A stretch of DNA of 32,367 nt from Gammaproteobacteria bacterium (lineage in GTDB: Bacteria > Pseudomonadota > Gammaproteobacteria > Arenicellales > CAJQKF01). Location: positions 1-32,367 of the forward strand of contig JAUIDF010000009.1 in assembly GCA_030429125.1 (NCBI GenBank), read 5' to 3'. A model generated the notes under the pieces. The model did not search any database, was not told the DNA's origin, and saw only the letters and a program-made list of their open reading frames with translations. A program made the position numbers and the translations under genes. Of the stretch, positions 5,264-17,237 are shown piece after piece (position 1 is the first letter of the stretch; each line of letters starts with the position of its first letter).

Positions 5264-5860
5264 TCAGTGCTGCGCCAGCAGGCACCACACGGCGAGCAGC
5301 GGCGATGGCCCCGAGCGCATGGCGTGCCTGACGCCGGGCGGATTGTGGACCGCGCCGCCCATTCCCGGCGCATGCCAGTCGAGGCCGTCGCGCCGCCATT
5401 CGCCGTCGCTCAGCACCACGTAGATCTCTTCCGGCGGATGGCTGTGGTCAGGATAACGGATGCGGGGCGCGGTCAGCGTCACCCCAACGATGACGTCGGA
5501 GCGTCGTTCGATACCGTTCGGCGCGATGGCCCAGGCATTGGCATGTCCGTCGTGAAAGGCGGCGCCGTGCGAGTCCGATCCCGCGCGTCGATGCCACGCC
5601 AGCAGCGGCAGCAGTGCCTCGAGCGATGCGGCGACTTCGCCCGCCGTGCCGCCCGCCGCGCGTGCGTTGGCGATGGCCGCAGACAGGAATTGGCAGACCG
5701 GGAGGGTCGATGCCGGCCGGCGCGTTTCGATCGGCCCCGGTGCGCGAAGCGCGGCGAAAATCCGTTCGCCCGCGGCGCAGGCATCGTCGTGCGGACGCGC
5801 GGCGAAGAAGGCACCGCGAGTCGCGTCGATGAACCGCTGCAGGGAATCGGGACGCGCCAT
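5264..5860 (-). CDS. DMSP lyase-like cupin protein (DddL/DddQ family)
   Basis: YPDHSHPPEEIYVVLS followed by AVHNPPGVRHAMRSGPSPLLAVWCLL. Spacing Y..H.H...E.Y...(32 residues)...H fits the DddQ metal/catalytic residue pattern recalled for that family (Y120/H123/H125/E129/Y131/H163). Confidence 0.75.
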   Translation of the reverse strand: MARPDSLQRFIDATRGAFFAARPHDDACAAGERIFAALRAPGPIETRRPASTLPVCQFLSAAIANARAAGGTAGEVAASLEALLPLLAWHRRAGSDSHGAAFHDGHANAWAIAPNGIERRSDVIVGVTLTAPRIRYPDHSHPPEEIYVVLSDGEWRRDGLDWHAPGMGGAVHNPPGVRHAMRSGPSPLLAVWCLLAQH

Positions 5861-5986: not shown

Positions 5987-7897
5987 CTAGCCACTCTCCG
6001 TGCGCGCCTCCCCCATCCATTGCGGCGCGACGCCGACGGCGGTCAATGCCAGGCCGACGGCGAAATACCAGGGTTCGACGAACAGGAACAGGATGCCGGC
6101 GGCGAGCAGGACGATGCGTGGCAGGGCGCTGATCGGCTTGCGCAGGTAGCCCTCCACCGCCATGCCGACGACGATCATGCTGATGGCGACGTTGATCGTG
6201 GCAAAGGCAATCTCGAACGTGGTGCCGTTGAGCAGCAGCGCCTCGTTGTAGACAAAGCTGAACGGCACCAGGAAGGCGGCAATGGCGATCTTCACCGCGT
6301 TGGCGGCAATGGTGAGCGGGTTCTCGTCGGCGATGGCGCTGGCGGCATAGGCGGCGACCGCCACGGGCGGCGTCAACGCCGACATCACCGCGAAATAGAG
6401 CAGGAACATGTGCCCCGCCATGGGCGAGATGCCGAGATCGGCCATCACCGGTGCGATCAGCACGGCGGCGAGAATGAAGGCGCTCGGCGTCGGCATGCCC
6501 AGGCCCAGCAGGATGGTGAGCCCGGCGGCCACGAGCAGGGAAAGGAACAGGTCGGCGCCCGAGATGAGAAACACGAGGTGGGAGAACTTGGACGCCAGGC
6601 CGGTCATGGTAATGCCGCCGATCACCAGGCCCGCGGCCGCGCAGGCGCCGGCCACGGCCACCATGCGCAGGCTGGACTCGGCGAGAATGTCGAGGACCGC
6701 CCGCGGGGTCAGGCGCGTGGCGCGCTTCAGCGACGAGACCACGATTACGGCCGCGGTGCCATACACGGCCGCATAGGTCGGCGTGTAGCCTTCCAGCAGC
6801 GCCCAGGTGATGACCACCAGCGGCACGATGAACAGGCCACCGTCCCTGAGTGTCGCCAGCAGGGTCGGCACCTGGCTTTCGGCGAGTCCGGACAGGCCGA
6901 TGCGCTTGGCGCGCAAGTGCACCTGGAAATAGATCGGCACGTAGTAGAGCAGGGCGGGGATGAGGCCGGCCAGCGCGATGTCGACGTAGGCGATGCCGGT
7001 GTATTCGGCCATGATGAACGCCGCTGCCCCCATGACCGGGGGTAGCAGGCTGCCGCCGGTGGAGGCCGCGACTTCCACCGCGCCGGCGAAGGCGCCGCTG
7101 TAGCCGAGTCGTCGCATCATGGGAATGGTGACCGCGCCGGTGGTGACCACGTCCGAGGTCGGGCTGCCGGAAATGGTGCCGTACAGCCCCGAGGAAATTA
7201 CCGCGATCTTGGCCGGTCCGCCCTGCGCGCGTCCGGTCAGCGAGGCGGCGAGGTTGAAAAAGAAGTCGCCGCCGCCGGTCTTGGCGAGCGCGGTGCCGAA
7301 CAGTACGAACAGGAAGGCATAGGTGGCCGCCACGCGCAGCGGTACGCCGAACAGGCCGTCCGTGGTGAACACCATGATGTCGAGAAAATGCGGGACGGTG
7401 ATCTCGCCGTGGGTCAGCGGGCCGCTGAGGCGATCACCGAACAGGTTATAGACGATGAAGCCGATGACGATCAGCGTCAGCCCCGGGCCCACCGTGCGGC
7501 GCATGGCCTCGATGGTGAGCAGGATGACGAGACTGGCGAAAAACACGTCGAAGGTCGACAGCGGATCGAGCAGCGTGATGCGCTGGGCGATGGTGTCGGC
7601 CTGGGTGAGAAAGTAGATGCCGCAGGCGGCGGACAGCGCCGAGAGCGGCCAGTCGAACCAGTCCACGCGCTCGGCGTCGGCGTGCGGACCGTGGCCGATC
7701 ATCAGGAAGGTGAGGACCAGCATCAGCGCGAGGAACGTGATGGTCAGGGACAACACGTCCTCGGTGGAGAATGCCGCCGCGTATACCGTCCACACGGCGG
7801 TGAGGGCGGCGAACACCTTGATGCCGCCGCCCAGGCGGCCACCGGGCCGCCTTCGAACGCCTGTGTCGAAGGCGAACCGGGTGATCGCCCTGAGCAT
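5987..7897 (-). CDS. TRAP transporter permease, fused small+large membrane subunits (DctQM type)
   Basis: 636 aa polytopic protein with TRAP motifs: GLYGTISGSPTSDVVTTGAVTIPMMRRLGYSGAFAGAVEVAASTGGSLLPPVMGAAAFIMAEYTGIAY and GLGMPTPSAFILAAVLIAPV. Confidence 0.95.
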   Translation of the reverse strand: MLRAITRFAFDTGVRRRPGGRLGGGIKVFAALTAVWTVYAAAFSTEDVLSLTITFLALMLVLTFLMIGHGPHADAERVDWFDWPLSALSAACGIYFLTQADTIAQRITLLDPLSTFDVFFASLVILLTIEAMRRTVGPGLTLIVIGFIVYNLFGDRLSGPLTHGEITVPHFLDIMVFTTDGLFGVPLRVAATYAFLFVLFGTALAKTGGGDFFFNLAASLTGRAQGGPAKIAVISSGLYGTISGSPTSDVVTTGAVTIPMMRRLGYSGAFAGAVEVAASTGGSLLPPVMGAAAFIMAEYTGIAYVDIALAGLIPALLYYVPIYFQVHLRAKRIGLSGLAESQVPTLLATLRDGGLFIVPLVVITWALLEGYTPTYAAVYGTAAVIVVSSLKRATRLTPRAVLDILAESSLRMVAVAGACAAAGLVIGGITMTGLASKFSHLVFLISGADLFLSLLVAAGLTILLGLGMPTPSAFILAAVLIAPVMADLGISPMAGHMFLLYFAVMSALTPPVAVAAYAASAIADENPLTIAANAVKIAIAAFLVPFSFVYNEALLLNGTTFEIAFATINVAISMIVVGMAVEGYLRKPISALPRIVLLAAGILFLFVEPWYFAVGLALTAVGVAPQWMGEARTESG

Positions 7898-7903
7898 GTG
7901 GAG

Positions 7904-8896
7904 TTACATCAGGCCCTTGTCTTTATAGACTGCCTCGGCGGCCGGGTGGTACGGCACCGTCGAGGCGCCCGCCATCAACTTCGCATCTAGGGGCGACATG
8001 GCCTTGTGCACGCCCTGCATCTGGTCGACGTGGTCGATCAGCGCCGCGGTCACGTCCTTCACCATCTCGGGATCGGCATCCTCGTGGGCGAACAGCTGCG
8101 CGGACAGGGTCACCGTCAGGGTGTCGTTGTCGGCCCAGTCGTAGGCGTCGGCGGGAATCGTGTACTTGCCGATGCTCCACTCGGCGGCGACGGTGTCGGC
8201 GGTCGCCTCGGTGATGGGCACCAGCGAGAGCTCGATGGCCTCGGCGAGCTGGCGGATGGAGCTGTGGTTGACGAACAGGGAATTGAGGATGGCGTCGGCG
8301 CGACGGTCGCGCATCATCTCACCCTGTTCCTTGGAGGCGGCGAAGGTCACCGAGCCGCCCCAGGCCTCGAGATTCTCGATGCTCGCACCCACCGCATTGA
8401 GCATGGACTCGCCGACGCCGCTCGCCACGTTGCCGCGGCGGTTGAGCAGAATGCGCGCCGGCACCTGCTTGGCGGCGATGTCCTCGAGGGTGGAAATGCC
8501 GTGCTCCTCGGCGAAGTCGCGGTTGACGATGAGCTGCATCGGCGCCCAGGTGTAGATCACCGCCACGGTCTTCATGGAGTCGATGGGCCCGGAGAACGGC
8601 TCCTCGCCGTTCAGCGCCGCCTTGGCCTCGGCGTCATGGATCAGCGCCAGGTCGCACTTCTTCTGCTCGATCTGCATGACGTTGGCGAAGCCGCCGCCGG
8701 AGGTCTGGTAGGTGACCGTGGAACCGGGGTGCGCGGCTTTCACGGCGTTGTCCACGCCGGCGCCGATCAGCGACCACAGCCCGCCGGGACTGGCGCCGCA
8801 CAGCGTCAGCGAATATTGCGCGGACGCGGCGCCGCTGAAGGCGATGCCGGTGGAAAACGTGGCGCAAAGGGCGAGCAGTTTCAGCGATCGTTTCAT
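7904..8896 (-). CDS. TAXI family TRAP transporter solute-binding protein
   Basis: Start at MKRSLKLLALCATFSTGIAFSGAASAQYSLTLCGASPGGLWSLIGAGVDNAVKAAHPGSTVTYQTSGGGFANV (signal peptide plus TAXI-type GASPGGLWSLIGAG). Directly upstream of the permease. The ORF track's start at 8986 is probably too long. Confidence 0.92.
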   Translation of the reverse strand: MKRSLKLLALCATFSTGIAFSGAASAQYSLTLCGASPGGLWSLIGAGVDNAVKAAHPGSTVTYQTSGGGFANVMQIEQKKCDLALIHDAEAKAALNGEEPFSGPIDSMKTVAVIYTWAPMQLIVNRDFAEEHGISTLEDIAAKQVPARILLNRRGNVASGVGESMLNAVGASIENLEAWGGSVTFAASKEQGEMMRDRRADAILNSLFVNHSSIRQLAEAIELSLVPITEATADTVAAEWSIGKYTIPADAYDWADNDTLTVTLSAQLFAHEDADPEMVKDVTAALIDHVDQMQGVHKAMSPLDAKLMAGASTVPYHPAAEAVYKDKGLM

Positions 8897-9036
8897 GGCG
8901 GTCTCTCTCCTGGTGTGATCCTCGGCCAGCGTTCGACTGCGTGAACCGCTGGGCGTTCGGGTTATCGTCCGGTCATTATGGGTCAAGTCGGATTTCCGCT
9001 CCCGAGCGCCGGTCAGTTGCCGGCTTGCCGATTAAC

Positions 9037-9048
9037 TTAGAAATCTAA
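9037..9048 (+). promoter_or_regulatory. Candidate MarR operator, site 1 (TTAGAAATCTAA), between the TAXI and class II aldolase genes
   Basis: Inverted repeat TTAGA-N2-TCTAA. Shares the 15-mer AACTTAGAAATCTAA with site 3 and is preceded by CCGGCTTG at 9020-9027. Confidence 0.72.
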
Positions 9049-9154
9049 CTTGTGGTTACAATAGCGTCTCTGGAAATCGCGTGTCAACCGACCCGGGTGG
9101 ATGGTCGCGGAGGCCAGCGCGGGCCAGAGCCAGTGTACGACGGAGCCAGCCGAT

Positions 9155-9964
9155 ATGAATGAAAACACAGCCCATGCCGGCCGCGACGGCCTGCCGGTGA
9201 GCATCCAGGCGGACCGCGGCGAACCGGCCGAGACACCCTCGCGGACCCTGGTCGAGGAACTGGTCGCCGCCAATCGCATCCTCTTCCGGCATCGGGTCGT
9301 CGATGCATTCGGACACGTGAGTGTGCGCCACGACAAGGACTCCTCCCGTTTCCTGCTGGCGCGCAACATGGCGCCGGCGCTGGTGACCGAACTGGACCTG
9401 GTCGAGTTTCACCTCGACGGCACGCCGGTGGATGCCCATGGCCGATCCGTGTACCTGGAGCGGTTCATCCATGGTGAGATTTACCGGGCGCGCGAAGATG
9501 TCATGGCCGTCGTGCACAGTCACGCGCCCGCGGTGGTACCGTTCGGCGTGTCGCGCAGTGCGACGCTGATGCCGGTCTGGCACATGAGCGGGTTCCTCGG
9601 CCTCGAGACACCCGTGTTCGAGATTCGCGAAACGGCAGGCGATGCCAGCGATTTGCTGATTCGCGACAACGCGCTGGGAGAGTCACTCGCCGGTTCGCTC
9701 GGCGATGCCTGCGTGGTGCTGATGCGAGGCCACGGCGCCACCGTGGTCGGCGCGTCGATTCGCGAGGCGGTTTTCCGGGCGGTGTACACTCAGCTCAATG
9801 CCGAGCTTCAGCTCAACGCCCTGCAACTCGGCGACGTCAACTACCTGACCGAGGGCGAAACGCACACTACCACGGCGTCGGTGGGCAGCCAGGTGGACCG
9901 CGCCTGGAACCTGTGGAAGCGCGAGGTCGAGGCCGACCACGACGGCGAGGACGGCGGGGCGTGA
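9155..9964 (+). CDS. Class II aldolase/adducin family protein (possible aromatic decarboxylase)
   Basis: ELVAANRILFRHRVVDAFGHVSVRH, EDVMAVVHSHAPAVVPFGVS and VVLMRGHGATVVGASIREAVFRAVYTQLNAE, with the HxH and later His metal ligands of the family. Confidence 0.9.
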   Translation: MNENTAHAGRDGLPVSIQADRGEPAETPSRTLVEELVAANRILFRHRVVDAFGHVSVRHDKDSSRFLLARNMAPALVTELDLVEFHLDGTPVDAHGRSVYLERFIHGEIYRAREDVMAVVHSHAPAVVPFGVSRSATLMPVWHMSGFLGLETPVFEIRETAGDASDLLIRDNALGESLAGSLGDACVVLMRGHGATVVGASIREAVFRAVYTQLNAELQLNALQLGDVNYLTEGETHTTTASVGSQVDRAWNLWKREVEADHDGEDGGA

Positions 9965-10120
9965 ACGGCATGTTGTCGGCGGCGCCGGGGGTGCCTGGCG
10001 GCGAGGCGCAGAGCGCGACACCGCCGGGCGACGGCGAAACGGCGACCTGCTGCCCGGCGAGGATGGCAGGCAGCGACACGGCTTGCGAATTGATCGGGTA
10101 GAACACGAGGGAGCCACTGC

Positions 10121-10741
10121 GTGGACAACAAGGCACGAGCAGGACTGATCGCGAATCGACTCGAGGAAGTCGACGAGACCACGCGCTCGATACTCGAGCA
10201 CTGGATGAAGATCGCGCCGGACGATCGCCTCGCACACCTGCTTCGCGACGCCTCCCGCGGTCTCATGCGTTCGCTGCAGCTGCGCCTGTCCGAGCACGGC
10301 ATCTCCTTCGGCCACTGGGTCTTCCTGCGCGTGCTGTGGACCTTCGACGGTCTCAGCCAGCGTGAGCTCAGTATCCAGGCGGGTCTGATGGAGTCCACCA
10401 CCCATACCGCGCTCAACCGCATGCAGGAACTCGGCTTGATCGAACGCCGTCACAAACCCGGCAACCGTCGAAAGCTCCACGTGTTCCTGACCGCGCATGG
10501 CCGCGAGCTGGAGTCGGTGCTGGTTCCACTGGCGGAAGAGGTGAACCAGGTGGCGGTGGCGGGTCTGACATCGGCCCAGGTCGAAGCCGTTCGCAGCGCG
10601 CTTTTCACCATCATCACCAACCTGGCCGTGGACGAGGTGGAGGCCGCCGGCCGGGGCCAGCGGATCGTCTCCACCCGCGAACTGGCGCGTCACGGCCGGC
10701 GCCGCGGACGGTCGGACAAGTCCCCGGAACCCGATAACTGA
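10121..10741 (+). CDS. MarR family transcriptional regulator
   Basis: Winged-helix core: FGHWVFLRVLWTFDGLSQRELSIQAGLMESTTHTALNRMQELGLIERRHKPGNRRKLHVFLTAHGRELESVLVPLAEEVN. GTG start. Confidence 0.93.
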   Translation: MDNKARAGLIANRLEEVDETTRSILEHWMKIAPDDRLAHLLRDASRGLMRSLQLRLSEHGISFGHWVFLRVLWTFDGLSQRELSIQAGLMESTTHTALNRMQELGLIERRHKPGNRRKLHVFLTAHGRELESVLVPLAEEVNQVAVAGLTSAQVEAVRSALFTIITNLAVDEVEAAGRGQRIVSTRELARHGRRRGRSDKSPEPDN

Positions 10742-10769
10742 TCCCGCCGAACCGCGATTGTGCGTTGTC

Positions 10770-12062
10770 TCAGCCGGCCTGTTCGTGGTGCGCCGATTCC
10801 TCGCGGGCGGCGCCCAGTTCGCGCCAGTTCGTCTGCTTGCTGACCACGCCCTGGTAGGAGGCGATGCCGGTGTGGGGGATGCGCGGTTCGGTGGTGCCGA
10901 GCGCCTGGCCGCCGGCGGCCACCTCGCGGGCGGCGGCGACCATCAGTCGCCGGAATTCCACCACGGCAATGTCGCTGGCGCCGAGGACCTCCCGGGTACG
11001 GTCGATGATGGGGCCCATGGACGTCCACATGGCGATATCCTGGTTGGGAATGCCGGGAATACCCGTGAAGTCGTCGCCCTTCATGGCCTCGCGGTCCTGC
11101 AGGAAGTCGTTACCGAGATGGCGTGTGCTGGTGAAATCGGCATTGAGGTCGACGCCGGGCACGGCGCGACCGAACTCGCGCCACGTCTGCGTGTCGGGGC
11201 AATCGGTACCGCCCCAGGCGATGAAATGAAACACCGAGTTTTCATCGTCCTCGGGCACGATCACGCTGGCGACGTTGTACGAGGTGTTCGGCGGGATGAG
11301 TGCGACAAAGGGCGCGATGTACACGGTGACGCGCACGTAGTCGTGGGTCGCCGCGTTCTTGATCGGGCGACGCAGCGCCGCGTAGCGAAAGCCGAACGAG
11401 GTCGGCTGGGTCACCAGTCGCGGCGACTTGTCGGTTGACGGGCGAAGCCAGTGCGATTCGTTGGCGGCGGCGCTGTCGATGCGCGCCGGCACCATGTCGC
11501 TGGAGTGCAGGCTCGAGGAGTGGGCGGAGTCGATCTGTCCCTCCATGATCTGTGCCCAGTTGGCCGGTACCTTGATCTTGAGGATCGATACCGGCGTGTC
11601 GTCGTCGGGCGAGAACGACGGCCGCTGGAATGCCGGCACGTCGTCGGCCGGGCCCATGTACACCCACACCAGCCCGCCGCACTCCGTCACCGGGTAGGCG
11701 CGGTGGCGTACTTTCTCCTTGAGCTTGCTCTCGGGCGGCTCCGACAGCATGTCGACGCAGTTGCCCTCGACGTCGAACTTCCAGCCATGGTACAGACAGC
11801 GCAGGCCGCATTCCTCGTTGCGTCCGTAAACCAGCGAGGCGCGCCGGTGGGGGCAGAGTTCGTCGAGGGCGCCGAGCCGACCTTCCGAGTCCCGGAAGAT
11901 GACGAGGTTATCGCCCAGCAGTCTCGACCGCACCGGCTTGCCATCGGGCACGGCGACTTCTTCCGAGAGCAGCGCCGGAATCCAGTGGCGGCGCATGAGC
12001 TGGCCCATGGGGGCATCGCCGGTGACGCGGGTGAGCAGGTCGTTTTCTTCGGCGGTCATCAT
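10770..12062 (-). CDS. Rieske non-heme iron oxygenase, phthalate 4,5-dioxygenase-type large subunit
   Basis: Rieske motif CPHRRASLVYGRNEECGLRCLYHGWKFDVEGNCVDMLSEP, and MEGQIDSAHSSSLHS in the catalytic domain. Start, Rieske region and partner genes resemble the Pht3/OphA2 group. Confidence 0.9.
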   Translation of the reverse strand: MMTAEENDLLTRVTGDAPMGQLMRRHWIPALLSEEVAVPDGKPVRSRLLGDNLVIFRDSEGRLGALDELCPHRRASLVYGRNEECGLRCLYHGWKFDVEGNCVDMLSEPPESKLKEKVRHRAYPVTECGGLVWVYMGPADDVPAFQRPSFSPDDDTPVSILKIKVPANWAQIMEGQIDSAHSSSLHSSDMVPARIDSAAANESHWLRPSTDKSPRLVTQPTSFGFRYAALRRPIKNAATHDYVRVTVYIAPFVALIPPNTSYNVASVIVPEDDENSVFHFIAWGGTDCPDTQTWREFGRAVPGVDLNADFTSTRHLGNDFLQDREAMKGDDFTGIPGIPNQDIAMWTSMGPIIDRTREVLGASDIAVVEFRRLMVAAAREVAAGGQALGTTEPRIPHTGIASYQGVVSKQTNWRELGAAREESAHHEQAG

Positions 12063-12109
12063 AGTCGTCGTCCCGTGGCCGGTGGCATCTGTGGGTGGAA
12101 GGTAAAATA

Positions 12110-12121
12110 TTAGATATCTAA
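12110..12121 (-). promoter_or_regulatory. Candidate MarR operator, site 2 (perfect 12-bp palindrome TTAGATATCTAA), upstream of the Rieske oxygenase
   Basis: Self-complementary 12-mer. In the minus direction it lies in TTGATT-17 bp-TAATAT (-35 at 12135-12130, -10 at 12112-12107), preceded by CCGACTTG (12140-12133). Confidence 0.75.
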
Positions 12122-12190
12122 GTCATTCGAATCAAGTCGGTCCGACAAGCCCGCGAAACACGGCACGGGTACCGACTTGCACAAATAAAC

Positions 12191-12202
12191 TTAGAAATCT
12201 AA
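12191..12202 (+). promoter_or_regulatory. Candidate MarR operator, site 3 (TTAGAAATCTAA), upstream of the oxygenase reductase
   Basis: Same inverted repeat as site 1. It lies in TTGCAC-17 bp-TAAACT (-35 at 12177-12182, -10 at 12200-12205), preceded by CCGACTTG (12172-12179). Confidence 0.75.
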
Positions 12203-12217
12203 ACTATTTGGTCATTC

Positions 12218-13228
12218 ATGTCATCACCACCGTCGGCGCCCGACCCGGGAAACACGAACATGACTACACCTGCGAATGCCAGGGATTTCATGTCCCTCAA
12301 GCTTGACCGAAAGATCCCGCTGGCCGAGGACATCTGGCTGTTCGAGTTCGTGCGGCCACAGGGCGGCGCCCTGCCTGCCTTCGAGGCGGGGGCGCACGTG
12401 ACCGTGATCACACCGTCGGGCGCGCGTCGGAACTATTCGCTGTGCAACGATCCTGCCGAGAACCAGCGCTACCAGCTCGGTATCAAGGCGGAGCGAAACG
12501 GTCGCGGCGCTTCGCTCAGCATGGTCGAGCAGACCGAGGTCGGGGACGTGTTGCCGGTCGCTGATCCCGAGAACTCCTTCGAACTGGTCGACGCCGAGGA
12601 GTACATTTTTATCGCGGGAGGCATCGGCATCACGCCGATCATGTGCATGGTCCGCTCGCTGATGGCGCGCGGGCACGCCGGGTTTCACTTGTACTACGTG
12701 ACCCGCAGCCCCGAGTTGACGGCGTTCGGTGAAGAACTGGCCGACGGCGCGCTGGCCGATCGGGTGACCGTGCATCACGATGGCGGCGACCCCGACAACG
12801 TGTACGACTTCTGGCCGTTGTTCGAAAAGCCCGGCAAGGCCCACGTGTACTGCTGCGGGCCTCGCGCGCTGATGGAAGAGATTCGCGGCGTGTCCGGGCA
12901 CTGGCCGCAGTCGCGCATCCACTTCGAGGACTTCGCCTCCGACGTGCAGGCGGTCCGCGAGGACGACCGCGCCTTCACCGTGAGACATGCCGATACGGGC
13001 GAGACGATCGAGGTGCCGGCCGATGCCACCATCCTCGATACGCTACGCCACGCCGGCCACGATTTGCCGAGTTCCTGCGAGAGCGGTACCTGCGGTACCT
13101 GCCGCACGGAGCTGGTCGAGGGCGAGGTCGACCATCGCGACATGGTACTGGAGGCGCACCAGCGCGAAACGCACATCATGATCTGCGTTTCGCGCGCACG
13201 TGGCGACGAACTCGTCCTGCGCTGGTGA
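12218..13228 (+). CDS. Phthalate dioxygenase reductase-type oxidoreductase (FMN, NAD and C-terminal 2Fe-2S domains)
   Basis: ARRNYSLCND (flavin), AGGIGITPIMCMVRSL (NAD), CESGTCGTCRTELVEGEVDHRDMVL (plant-type 2Fe-2S). Alternative start at 12260 (MTTPANARDF). Confidence 0.93.
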   Translation: MSSPPSAPDPGNTNMTTPANARDFMSLKLDRKIPLAEDIWLFEFVRPQGGALPAFEAGAHVTVITPSGARRNYSLCNDPAENQRYQLGIKAERNGRGASLSMVEQTEVGDVLPVADPENSFELVDAEEYIFIAGGIGITPIMCMVRSLMARGHAGFHLYYVTRSPELTAFGEELADGALADRVTVHHDGGDPDNVYDFWPLFEKPGKAHVYCCGPRALMEEIRGVSGHWPQSRIHFEDFASDVQAVREDDRAFTVRHADTGETIEVPADATILDTLRHAGHDLPSSCESGTCGTCRTELVEGEVDHRDMVLEAHQRETHIMICVSRARGDELVLRW

Positions 13229-13235
13229 CCGGGCA

Positions 13236-14438
13236 GTGAGCGGCGGTCGCACCATCGGCCTGGGCGTGATCGGCCTCGGCCGCGGTTTCACGTTGATGCT
13301 ACCGACGTTCGTGCGCGATCCGCGCTTTCGCCTGGTGGCCGCGACCACGCCGGGCGCAGAGGCACGCGCCGCCTTCGAGCGCGATTTCGGCGCCCGTTCC
13401 CACTTGTCGGTCGACGAACTGCTTGCCGATCCGGCGGTGGATGCGGTTTACGTCGCCAGCCCCCACCAGTTTCATTGCGAGCACGTCTGCGCAGCGGTGG
13501 CTGCCGGCCGTCACGTGCTCGTCGACAAGCCGTTGGCGGTCAGCCTGGAAGAGGGCGAGCGCATGGTGGCGGCGGCGTGTTCGGCGCCGGTGCACGTCGT
13601 CGTCGGCCCCAGCCACAGCTTCGACGCGCCGGTGTTGAAGGCGTGCGAGATCATTGCCTCGGGCGCGGTCGGCAGTCCGCGCATGATCCACGCGTTCAAT
13701 TACACCGACTTTCTCTACCGGCCGCGACGCCCGGAAGAACTCGACACGGCGCGCGGCGGCGGCGTGGTCTACAGCCAGGCGGTGCACCAGGTCGACGTGG
13801 CGCGTGCACTGGCCGGGACACGGGCGACACGCGTCACCGCCCTGACCGGCAACTGGGACCCGGCGCGACCGACAGAGGGCGCATACAGCGCCTTGATGGA
13901 GTTCGAAGACGGCGCCTTCGCCTCGCTCACCTACAGTGGTTACGGTCGCTTCGACAGCGACGAGTTCATGGACTGGCATGGCGAGCTGGGTCGACGCAAG
14001 GACCCCGCGGACTACGGCGGCGCCCGCCGAGCCCTGGGGCGCGGTCTCGACGCTGCCGGGGAAACGGCGCGCAAGCGCGCACGGAACTACGGGCACGTCG
14101 ATTCGTCACGGTTCCTCGAGGCGCCGTTGCCGCACGCCCACGAGCACTTCGGCGTTGTCACGGTGTCGTGCGAGCGAGCGGATCTGCGGCTGAAGCCCGA
14201 CGGCGTGGAAGTGTTCGGCGACGACAGGCGTGAATTCGTCGCCCTGGCGGCGCCCAAGGTGCCTCGTATCGAGGTCATGAACGAGCTGTATGACGCGGTG
14301 ACAGGCACCGCGCCACCCGTACACTCGGCCGCGTCGGGGCTCGCCAGCCTCGAAGCGGCCGTCGCGATCCTGAACTCGGCCAGGGACCGCGGTCCGGTCA
14401 GGTTGTCGAGGCAGGTCGCCGTCAACGAATCCCACTAA
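13236..14438 (+). CDS. Gfo/Idh/MocA family oxidoreductase (Pht4-like dihydrodiol dehydrogenase candidate)
   Basis: GTG start at 13236: TIGLGVIGLGRGFTLMLPTFVRDPRFRLVAATTPG...VYVASPHQFHCEHVCAAVAAGRHVLVDKPLAVSLEEGERMV. Follows the reductase gene by 7 bp. Confidence 0.88.
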   Translation: MSGGRTIGLGVIGLGRGFTLMLPTFVRDPRFRLVAATTPGAEARAAFERDFGARSHLSVDELLADPAVDAVYVASPHQFHCEHVCAAVAAGRHVLVDKPLAVSLEEGERMVAAACSAPVHVVVGPSHSFDAPVLKACEIIASGAVGSPRMIHAFNYTDFLYRPRRPEELDTARGGGVVYSQAVHQVDVARALAGTRATRVTALTGNWDPARPTEGAYSALMEFEDGAFASLTYSGYGRFDSDEFMDWHGELGRRKDPADYGGARRALGRGLDAAGETARKRARNYGHVDSSRFLEAPLPHAHEHFGVVTVSCERADLRLKPDGVEVFGDDRREFVALAAPKVPRIEVMNELYDAVTGTAPPVHSAASGLASLEAAVAILNSARDRGPVRLSRQVAVNESH

Positions 14439-14450
14439 CGAGGAGCGAAC

Positions 14451-15443
14451 GTGTCCAACCTTCAACTCTCCGTCGCCATCGGCGACTACGACCGTAACCG
14501 GCCCCTGATCGACGGTCGCGTGAAGATCGACGGCGTCGATCCGGTGTTCATGACCCTGTCGCCGGAGGAGATCTTCTTTCGCGCCTTCCGGCAGCAGGCA
14601 TTCGACGTGTGCGAGGTGTCGTTCGGTTCTTATGTCGTGACCGTCGACCAGGGCAATCCGCACTACGTGGCGGTGCCGGCGTTTCTCTCGCGCGCCTTCA
14701 GGCACTCGTCGATCCTGGTGCGCACCGACACCGGGATCGAGCGGCCGGAGGATCTGAAGGGGCGCCGCATCGGCATCGCCGAGTACCAGCTGAGCGCCAA
14801 CGTCTGGGCGCGGGCATTGCTCGAGGACGATCACGGCGTGAAGCCATCCGACATTCGCTGGGTGCGCGGCGGCATGGAGGCGAGCGGCCGCCCGGAGAAG
14901 CTCAAGCTCGAGTTGCCGGCCGACGTCTCGATCGAGGATGCGCCCGACGGCAGATCCCTCAACGACCTGCTGTCCGCCGGCGACATCGACGGCTTCATCG
15001 GGCCGCGCACGCTGTCGTGCTTCGATCGCGGTCATCCGCACGTGGGTCGCCTGTTCGTCGATTCGGCTGCCGCGGGTGCCGAGTACTACCGGCGCACCGG
15101 CATCTTTCCGATCATGCACCTGCTCGGCGTCCGGCGTCGGCTCGCCGAACAGCATCCCTGGCTGCCGACGGCGCTGTTCAAGGCCTTCGACGCGTCGAAA
15201 AAGCAGTGCCTGGCCAGCCTGTCGGATACGTCGGCAACGAAGGTCACGCTGCCCTTCGTCGAGGAACGACTGGCCGCCGCCCGGCATCTGCTCGGCGACG
15301 ATTTCTGGTCCTACGGCGTGCCGGCCAACCGCCAGGTACTCGATACGTTTCTCGACCATCACCACCGGCAGGGCCTGTCGAGTCGGCGCATCACCGTCGA
15401 AGAGCTGTTCCATCCCTCCACGCTGGAGTCCTACAGCATCTAG
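14451..15443 (+). CDS. 4,5-dihydroxyphthalate decarboxylase-like protein (Pht5 family, periplasmic-binding-protein fold)
   Basis: LQLSVAIGDYDRNRPLIDGRVKIDGVDPVFMTLSPEEIFFRAFRQQAFDVCEVSFGSYVV...LKGRRIGIAEYQLSANVWARALLEDDHGV...FPIMHLLGVRR, typical of the family. No signal peptide. Confidence 0.88.
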   Translation: MSNLQLSVAIGDYDRNRPLIDGRVKIDGVDPVFMTLSPEEIFFRAFRQQAFDVCEVSFGSYVVTVDQGNPHYVAVPAFLSRAFRHSSILVRTDTGIERPEDLKGRRIGIAEYQLSANVWARALLEDDHGVKPSDIRWVRGGMEASGRPEKLKLELPADVSIEDAPDGRSLNDLLSAGDIDGFIGPRTLSCFDRGHPHVGRLFVDSAAAGAEYYRRTGIFPIMHLLGVRRRLAEQHPWLPTALFKAFDASKKQCLASLSDTSATKVTLPFVEERLAAARHLLGDDFWSYGVPANRQVLDTFLDHHHRQGLSSRRITVEELFHPSTLESYSI

Positions 15444-16376: not shown

Positions 16377-17237
16377 ATGTTCGAACACAACGAGACCCTG
16401 GAAGCCGCGCGCCGCCGCAATGTAAACGATGCATTGTACGAGGATGTCGGTCGTTGCGACTGGACCGCGCGGCTGGTGCCGCCCGGGCGCGCGATCGCGG
16501 CGCGGGTCGTGGCAAAGGAAGCCGCGGTGCTGTGCGGCAGTGCCTGGTTCGAAGACTGCTTTCGCGCGCTGGACCCCGGTGCCGGGATCGACTGGCATCA
16601 TGCCGACGGCGACGATGTCGCTTCCGGCGATACGCTGTGCGAACTGCGCGCCGATGCCCGCGCGGCGTTGAGCGCGGAGCGCTCGGCGCTCAATTTTCTG
16701 CAGATGCTCTCTGCCGTCGCCACCGAGACGCGCCGCTATGCGCGCGCCATCGAGGGCCTGTCGCCCAATCCGCGCGGCTGCCTCATGCTCGATACGCGTA
16801 AAACGCTGCCCGGACTGCGCCAGGCGCAGAAGTACGCCGTGCGCACCGGGGGTGGCACCAACCATCGAATGGCATTGTGGGACGGCATCCTGATCAAGGA
16901 AAACCACATTGCCGCCGCCGGTGGCGTCGCCGCCGCACTGGACGCGGCGCGCGCGCTCGATGCCGGTGTCGATATCCAGATCGAGGTGGAGAATCTCGCC
17001 CAACTCGACCAGGCGCTGGACGCCGGCGCGCCTTACGTGCTGCTCGACAATTTCTCGCTCGAGGACATGCGTCGTGCCTGCGAGGTCAACGGCGGTCGTG
17101 CCATGCTGGAAGTCTCGGGCGGCGTCGATATCGACAGCGTGCGCGCCATTGCGAAGACGGGCGTCGATCGAATCTCCAGCGGCAAGCTGACCAAGGACGT
17201 GCGCGCGGTCGATTTCTCCATGCGCGTCATCGATTGA
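16377..17237 (+). CDS. nadC: Nicotinate-nucleotide diphosphorylase (carboxylating) / quinolinate phosphoribosyltransferase
   Basis: DTRKTLPGLRQAQKYAVRTGGGTNHRMALWDGILIKENHI, EVENLAQLDQALDAGAPYVLLDNF and LEVSGGVDIDSVRAIAKTGVDRISSGKLTKDV are NadC hallmarks. Confidence 0.96.
   Translation: MFEHNETLEAARRRNVNDALYEDVGRCDWTARLVPPGRAIAARVVAKEAAVLCGSAWFEDCFRALDPGAGIDWHHADGDDVASGDTLCELRADARAALSAERSALNFLQMLSAVATETRRYARAIEGLSPNPRGCLMLDTRKTLPGLRQAQKYAVRTGGGTNHRMALWDGILIKENHIAAAGGVAAALDAARALDAGVDIQIEVENLAQLDQALDAGAPYVLLDNFSLEDMRRACEVNGGRAMLEVSGGVDIDSVRAIAKTGVDRISSGKLTKDVRAVDFSMRVID

Follow-up and report, generated by a model that had tools for sequence, protein, structure and literature searches.

The MarR family protein SlyA has a proposed operator consensus of TTAGCAAGCTAA (PMC5797941), and OphR and TphR, which are named together with phthalate genes, are listed in the motif group GTNCG-N5-6-CGNAC (PMC13273656). 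In a 2026 review only the isophthalate regulator IphR is singled out as characterised in detail and o-phthalate clusters are presented as an untapped source of sensors, while uptake of o-phthalate by TAXI-TRAP transporters has been described for denitrifying bacteria (PMC13040137). For Thalassospira, a phdK-pht cluster has been linked to the degradation of phthalate via the 4,5-dihydrodiol (PMC9604089). Among open-licence papers, none was found that contained TTAGATATCTAA or that dealt with a MarR repressor and its operator for phthalate 4,5-dioxygenase genes. Here, a 32,367-nt stretch of gammaproteobacterial DNA (the window) was analysed. Three palindromes of the TTAGATATCTAA type in this window are very likely the operators of an autorepressor of the MarR family encoded in the same cluster, which would be relieved by phthalate or an early intermediate.

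The first-pass annotation had spoken of an aromatic cluster. This held, and domain content together with relatives of pht genes allowed it to be specified as an o-phthalate 4,5-dioxygenase (pht/oph) cluster that also encodes a TAXI-TRAP transporter. A Rieske oxygenase of the phthalate 4,5-dioxygenase type (Pht3/OphA2-like; 10770..12062, minus strand) carries LigXa_C and Rieske domains, has PDB chain 7fjl as its closest structure (578 bits) and is 62% identical to a protein annotated pht3. On the plus strand follow a phthalate dioxygenase reductase-like protein (Pht2/OphA1-like; 12218..13228), assigned by its Fer2, FAD and NAD domains and by synteny, a GFO/IDH/MocA dihydrodiol dehydrogenase (Pht4/OphB-like; 13200..14438; PF01408, syntenic with annotated pht4) and a 4,5-dihydroxyphthalate decarboxylase-like protein of the periplasmic-binding fold (Pht5/OphC-like; 14451..15443), which is 66% identical to annotated pht5 over its full length. 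All four enzymes of the pht/oph gene set thus occur together, and close relatives annotated pht3, pht4, pht5 and ophA1 share one cluster. The transporter consists of a TAXI-type TRAP solute-binding protein (7904..8896, minus; TIGR02122 over cut-off) and a fused TRAP permease with a DctM domain (5987..7897, minus; PF06808), syntenic in the genus. Judged by sequence, the cluster genes are those of o-phthalate breakdown via the 4,5-dihydrodiol.

Two neighbouring genes were observed in addition. A DMSP lyase-like cupin gene (5264-5860, minus; PF16867, E=3e-43) follows the TAXI-TRAP genes directly downstream in the same orientation. The gene for quinolinate phosphoribosyltransferase, nadC (16422-17225, plus), adjoins the phthalate genes, and no second nadC was found either in this genome or in the complete relative G002; nadC is likewise found beside phthalate genes in clusters of Thalassospira, Phaeobacter, Salipiger and Massilia. 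Phthalate resembles quinolinate, and a phthalate-tolerant enzyme is one possible reason for this proximity.

The proposed owner of the operators is a MarR family regulator encoded at 10121..10741 on the plus strand (PF01047, E=1.3e-9), homologs of which are found in phthalate clusters. It exceeded the curated cut-offs of both PF01047 (38.2 bits, cut-off 24.6) and PF12802 (32.6 bits, cut-off 27) and is not SlyA, scoring 20.2 bits against the NCBIfam SlyA model NF002926 with a cut-off of 120. Upstream on the same strand lies the gene of a class II aldolase-fold protein (9155..9964; Aldolase_II, PF00596), likely a decarboxylase, and the two genes probably form one operon. The closest solved chain to the aldolase-fold protein is 2z7b, Mlr6791 (199 bits), which we take to be a pyridine-dicarboxylate decarboxylase. 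This raises the alternative that a related dicarboxylate such as pyridine dicarboxylate, rather than o-phthalate, is the natural substrate and effector, the mechanism being otherwise unchanged. Although two of the sites outside the cluster described below, one preceding the gene of a 389-aa protein and the other in the vicinity of a racemase/isomerase-like gene, could also be read in this way, the Rieske oxygenase, reductase, dehydrogenase and decarboxylase constitute the phthalate set and are syntenic with clusters annotated pht and with the Thalassospira cluster linked to phthalate conversion (PMC9604089). A pyridine-dioxygenase function for the 389-aa protein also found no support, and a dicarboxylate other than o-phthalate is accordingly considered unlikely.

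Exact 12-mers were found at all three places claimed in the first-pass annotation. Operator 1, TTAGAAATCTAA at 9037..9048, is positioned between the minus-strand TAXI-TRAP genes and the divergent aldolase-MarR genes on the plus strand; operator 2, TTAGATATCTAA at 12110..12121, lies in the Rieske oxygenase promoter and is conserved in the genus; operator 3, TTAGAAATCTAA at 12191..12202, lies in the reductase promoter. None of the three is assigned a strand. Allowing up to two mismatches to TTAGANATCTAA, only these three places were found in the window. They amount to 6 strand hits compared to 0.46 expected by chance and a maximum of 3 over 100 shuffles, which bears out the suggestion that such clustering is not accidental. 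The motif is short and promoters are AT-rich, as would suit chance AT-rich sequence within promoter DNA. The shuffle controls, the rarity of the motif genome-wide and the invariance of the palindromes amid diverged flanks however speak against this, and a chance origin, already contradicted by conservation, has a practically negligible probability.

Phylogenetic footprinting, which had been proposed as a check, returned exact sites at the equivalent promoters of two same-genus genomes whose MarR orthologs are 81% and 74% identical. In both relatives, palindromes were retained exactly at the aldolase, Rieske and reductase promoters and before the gene of the 389-aa protein. In aligned promoters, AACTTAGAAATCTAACTT before the aldolase gene was invariant across the three genomes of the genus. 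The palindrome of the reductase promoter was invariant except for one core base, while the surrounding DNA had diverged. In the one same-family genome compared, in which the best match to the MarR protein is 27% identical, no exact site was found, just scattered matches with one mismatch.

The geometry of the promoters points in the same direction. The hexamers TTGATT-17-TAATAT (minus) and TTGCAC-17-TAAACT (plus) could be read as claimed, with identical spacing at the divergent oxygenase and reductase promoters; in both, the palindrome takes up the space between -35 and -10, and its last TAA opens the -10. Across the three genomes of the genus the Rieske and reductase operators are separated by 81, 98 or 215 bp, a variability that speaks for independent operators. 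At operator 1 the layout differs, as TTGCCG and TAACTT on the plus strand are 15 bp apart, unlike the 17 bp of the other two copies, and TTGCCG is not conserved in the genus. The only promoter found there by a promoter scan was TTGACA-18-TATTGT on the minus strand (9087..9058), directed toward the TAXI-TRAP genes, with both hexamers kept in 3/3 genomes. Operator 1 begins nine bases beyond its -10, that is, just downstream of the promoter. As operator 1 is located both beside this conserved promoter and before the aldolase-MarR genes, one operator can govern transporter and regulator. A palindrome near its own gene, invariant in three genomes, is also what was looked for in a MarR family protein.

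The palindromes had originally been described as part of a composite operator headed by CCGRCTTG. The octamers are in place, with CCGGCTTG at 9020-9027 (plus) and CCGACTTG at both 12133-12140 (minus) and 12172-12179 (plus), and the 17-bp layout holds in two copies, but CCGR has diverged in the genus and is not a conserved unit. The window holds 8 octamers of this type, where 3.15 would be expected. The composite operator was rejected on conservation; only a TTGAC-like -35 recurs. This was quantified over 41 site orientations by taking the best hexamer 15–18 bp upstream, where the mean match to TTGACA was 3.68 of 6 positions compared to 2.65 in 500 shuffles of the upstream DNA (maximum 3.10).

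A genome-wide motif scan, likewise proposed earlier, was performed in order to see whether the motif is widespread at unrelated promoters. In the 3.69-Mb assembly (76% complete) TTAG-N4-CTAA occurs at six sites, all with the core AWAT, while a reversed control pattern occurs 18 times; half of the six fall in the phthalate cluster of the window. Searching with TTAGANATCTAA and at most one mismatch returned the identical six places and no other. The motif is accordingly not widespread at unrelated promoters. The site at C9:2854 is intergenic, roughly 380 bp upstream of a racemase/decarboxylase-like (racemase/isomerase-like) gene. The site at C119:11183 lies just upstream of the start of the gene encoding the 389-aa protein (L008:3995-5164, minus), beside TRAP transporter genes, and is kept in both same-genus relatives. 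The third, at C328:654, precedes an ABC ATPase gene, behind which lies the gene of a paralogous protein (L009:1897-3096, plus; 61% identical to the 389-aa protein).

This family of paralogous proteins of about 390 aa is present in 3/3 genomes of the genus, and searches of 399 genomes across the phylum, of plasmids and of viral contigs found no relatives outside the genus. No match to it was obtained in Pfam, NCBIfam or the PDB, and the structure model of the 389-aa protein (mean pLDDT 42) was too poor for structure search. A NicX-like look of the protein, together with the racemase/isomerase-like gene near the C9 site, prompted the idea of a pyridine-type pathway; it failed, as the protein had no BLAST or profile match to annotated 2,5-dihydroxypyridine dioxygenase.

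Phthalate clusters in Alpha-, Beta- and Gammaproteobacteria, many of them plasmid-borne, contain homologs of the MarR protein with 41–60% identity, and most of these clusters have TTAG-N4-CTAA ahead of Rieske, reductase or transporter genes. In an unbiased scan for palindromes, covering every 4-base half-site at spacings of 0–10 in intergenic DNA from eight plasmid clusters, TTAG-N4-CTAA ranked first, with 10 sites in 6 of the 8 clusters; dinucleotide shuffles gave an expectation of 0.075. These clusters share ancestry and so are not independent trials, while their flanking DNA differs widely. From 36 chosen sites an extended consensus of about CTTAGATATCTAAG with A/T flanks was obtained, in which the TTAG and CTAA arms are fixed by the choice of sites and the inner A (78%), inner T (69%) and outer C (54%) are not. 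Sites were also seen in larger stretches around two further loci with phthalate genes (L120 and L122). No strict palindrome was present in 18 kb at L119 (MarR 60% identical, phthalate genes present) or in 18 kb at L123 (MarR 46% identical), where no pht oxygenase genes were found. At L121 the larger stretch held neither a site nor pht oxygenase genes that could be found, L124 had one unlinked match, and short loci of 3.4 kb around MarR homologs of 41–60% identity had no site.

Two side observations were made in these loci. Several phthalate clusters with a MarR homolog (L083, L085, L088, L117 and L118) also hold a thiamine-diphosphate enzyme, in most cases with an aldehyde dehydrogenase; in L118 these are annotated as benzoylformate decarboxylase and 2-formylbenzoate dehydrogenase, and such a set could channel 2-carboxybenzaldehyde into phthalate. 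At L098:1022-1051, close to a MarR gene with just 31% identity, a tandem TTAG-N4-CTAA pair, TTAGTAAGCTAA and TTAGCAAGCTAA, was found, the second site of which equals the proposed SlyA consensus.

Since the palindrome travels with the MarR gene across many bacteria, the TTAGATATCTAA-type palindrome is very probably the docking site of the cluster MarR. That it is the operator of the protein encoded at 10121-10741, as first suggested, is strongly supported at the sequence level by phylogenetic footprinting, genome-wide rarity and promoter geometry. Weighing against this reading are the absence of a strict palindrome at L119 and L123, the 76% completeness of the assembly, a comparison without ortholog that covers n=1 genome, other MarR-like proteins and the location of 3/6 sites outside the cluster. 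Some of these points would fit binding of the palindrome by another MarR/SlyA-type protein encoded elsewhere, with the cluster MarR recognising a different sequence: the genome does encode other MarR-like proteins, L119 has the MarR gene and no strict palindrome, and TTAG-N4-CTAA is common to other MarR proteins, as in the proposed SlyA consensus (PMC5797941). The site nevertheless accompanies the cluster MarR in three classes and on plasmids, and the same-family genome that lacks a close ortholog also lacks an exact site, which makes an owner elsewhere quite improbable.

With the cluster MarR as owner, binding, sign of action and effector can be proposed from what is typical of the MarR family. 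A MarR dimer on the predicted operators would keep RNA polymerase off the Rieske and reductase promoters by occlusion and, through operator 1, placed where the TAXI-TRAP transcript would begin and ahead of the aldolase-MarR genes, would repress its own synthesis as well. Binding of o-phthalate or an early pathway product to MarR would lift repression and result in joint induction of uptake, ring dihydroxylation, rearomatisation and decarboxylation to protocatechuate. Activators usually bind upstream, and a palindrome between -35 and -10 that overlaps the -10 is in a position typical of repression. This argues against MarR acting as an activator or countersilencer instead of a simple repressor, as SlyA does with a similar site when it activates some E. 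coli promoters by antagonising H-NS (PMC5797941), and such a role is judged highly improbable here. A broader proposal is made tentatively, at somewhat less than an even chance: that this MarR-operator pair, so far undescribed, recurs widely as a regulatory module of o-phthalate 4,5-dioxygenase clusters, spanning three proteobacterial classes and plasmids, and that in the genus its regulon extends to the 389-aa protein of no known family, for which phthalate or a related dicarboxylate may be the substrate. Being compact and conserved in numerous o-phthalate clusters, the MarR-operator pair offers itself as a candidate phthalate sensor, and the motif is usable for finding phthalate-responsive genes outside the clusters.

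Compared to the systems described, the proposed pair resembles SlyA in belonging to the MarR family and in its 12-bp palindrome with TTAG and CTAA arms four bases apart. It differs in the core (CAAG in SlyA, AWAT here), in serving a catabolic cluster rather than a global regulon and in the protein itself (20 bits against the SlyA cut-off of 120). CouR of Rhodococcus jostii (PMC4737184) is also of the MarR type and represses genes of aromatic catabolism until a catabolite releases it, as is proposed here, but its effector is p-coumaroyl-CoA, whereas phthalate or an early intermediate is the candidate for the window MarR. OphR, TphR and the isophthalate regulator IphR (PMC13040137) likewise control catabolism of phthalate isomers; OphR and TphR however belong with the GTNCG-N5-6-CGNAC motif group, while the window has a MarR protein with another palindrome. 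The Thalassospira phdK-pht cluster is syntenic with that of the window and in the excerpted account combines pht genes, a TRAP transporter and a MarR family gene, the latter mentioned there merely as a neighbour with no operator given (PMC9604089). The T. lucentensis plasmid version of this cluster carries the palindrome.
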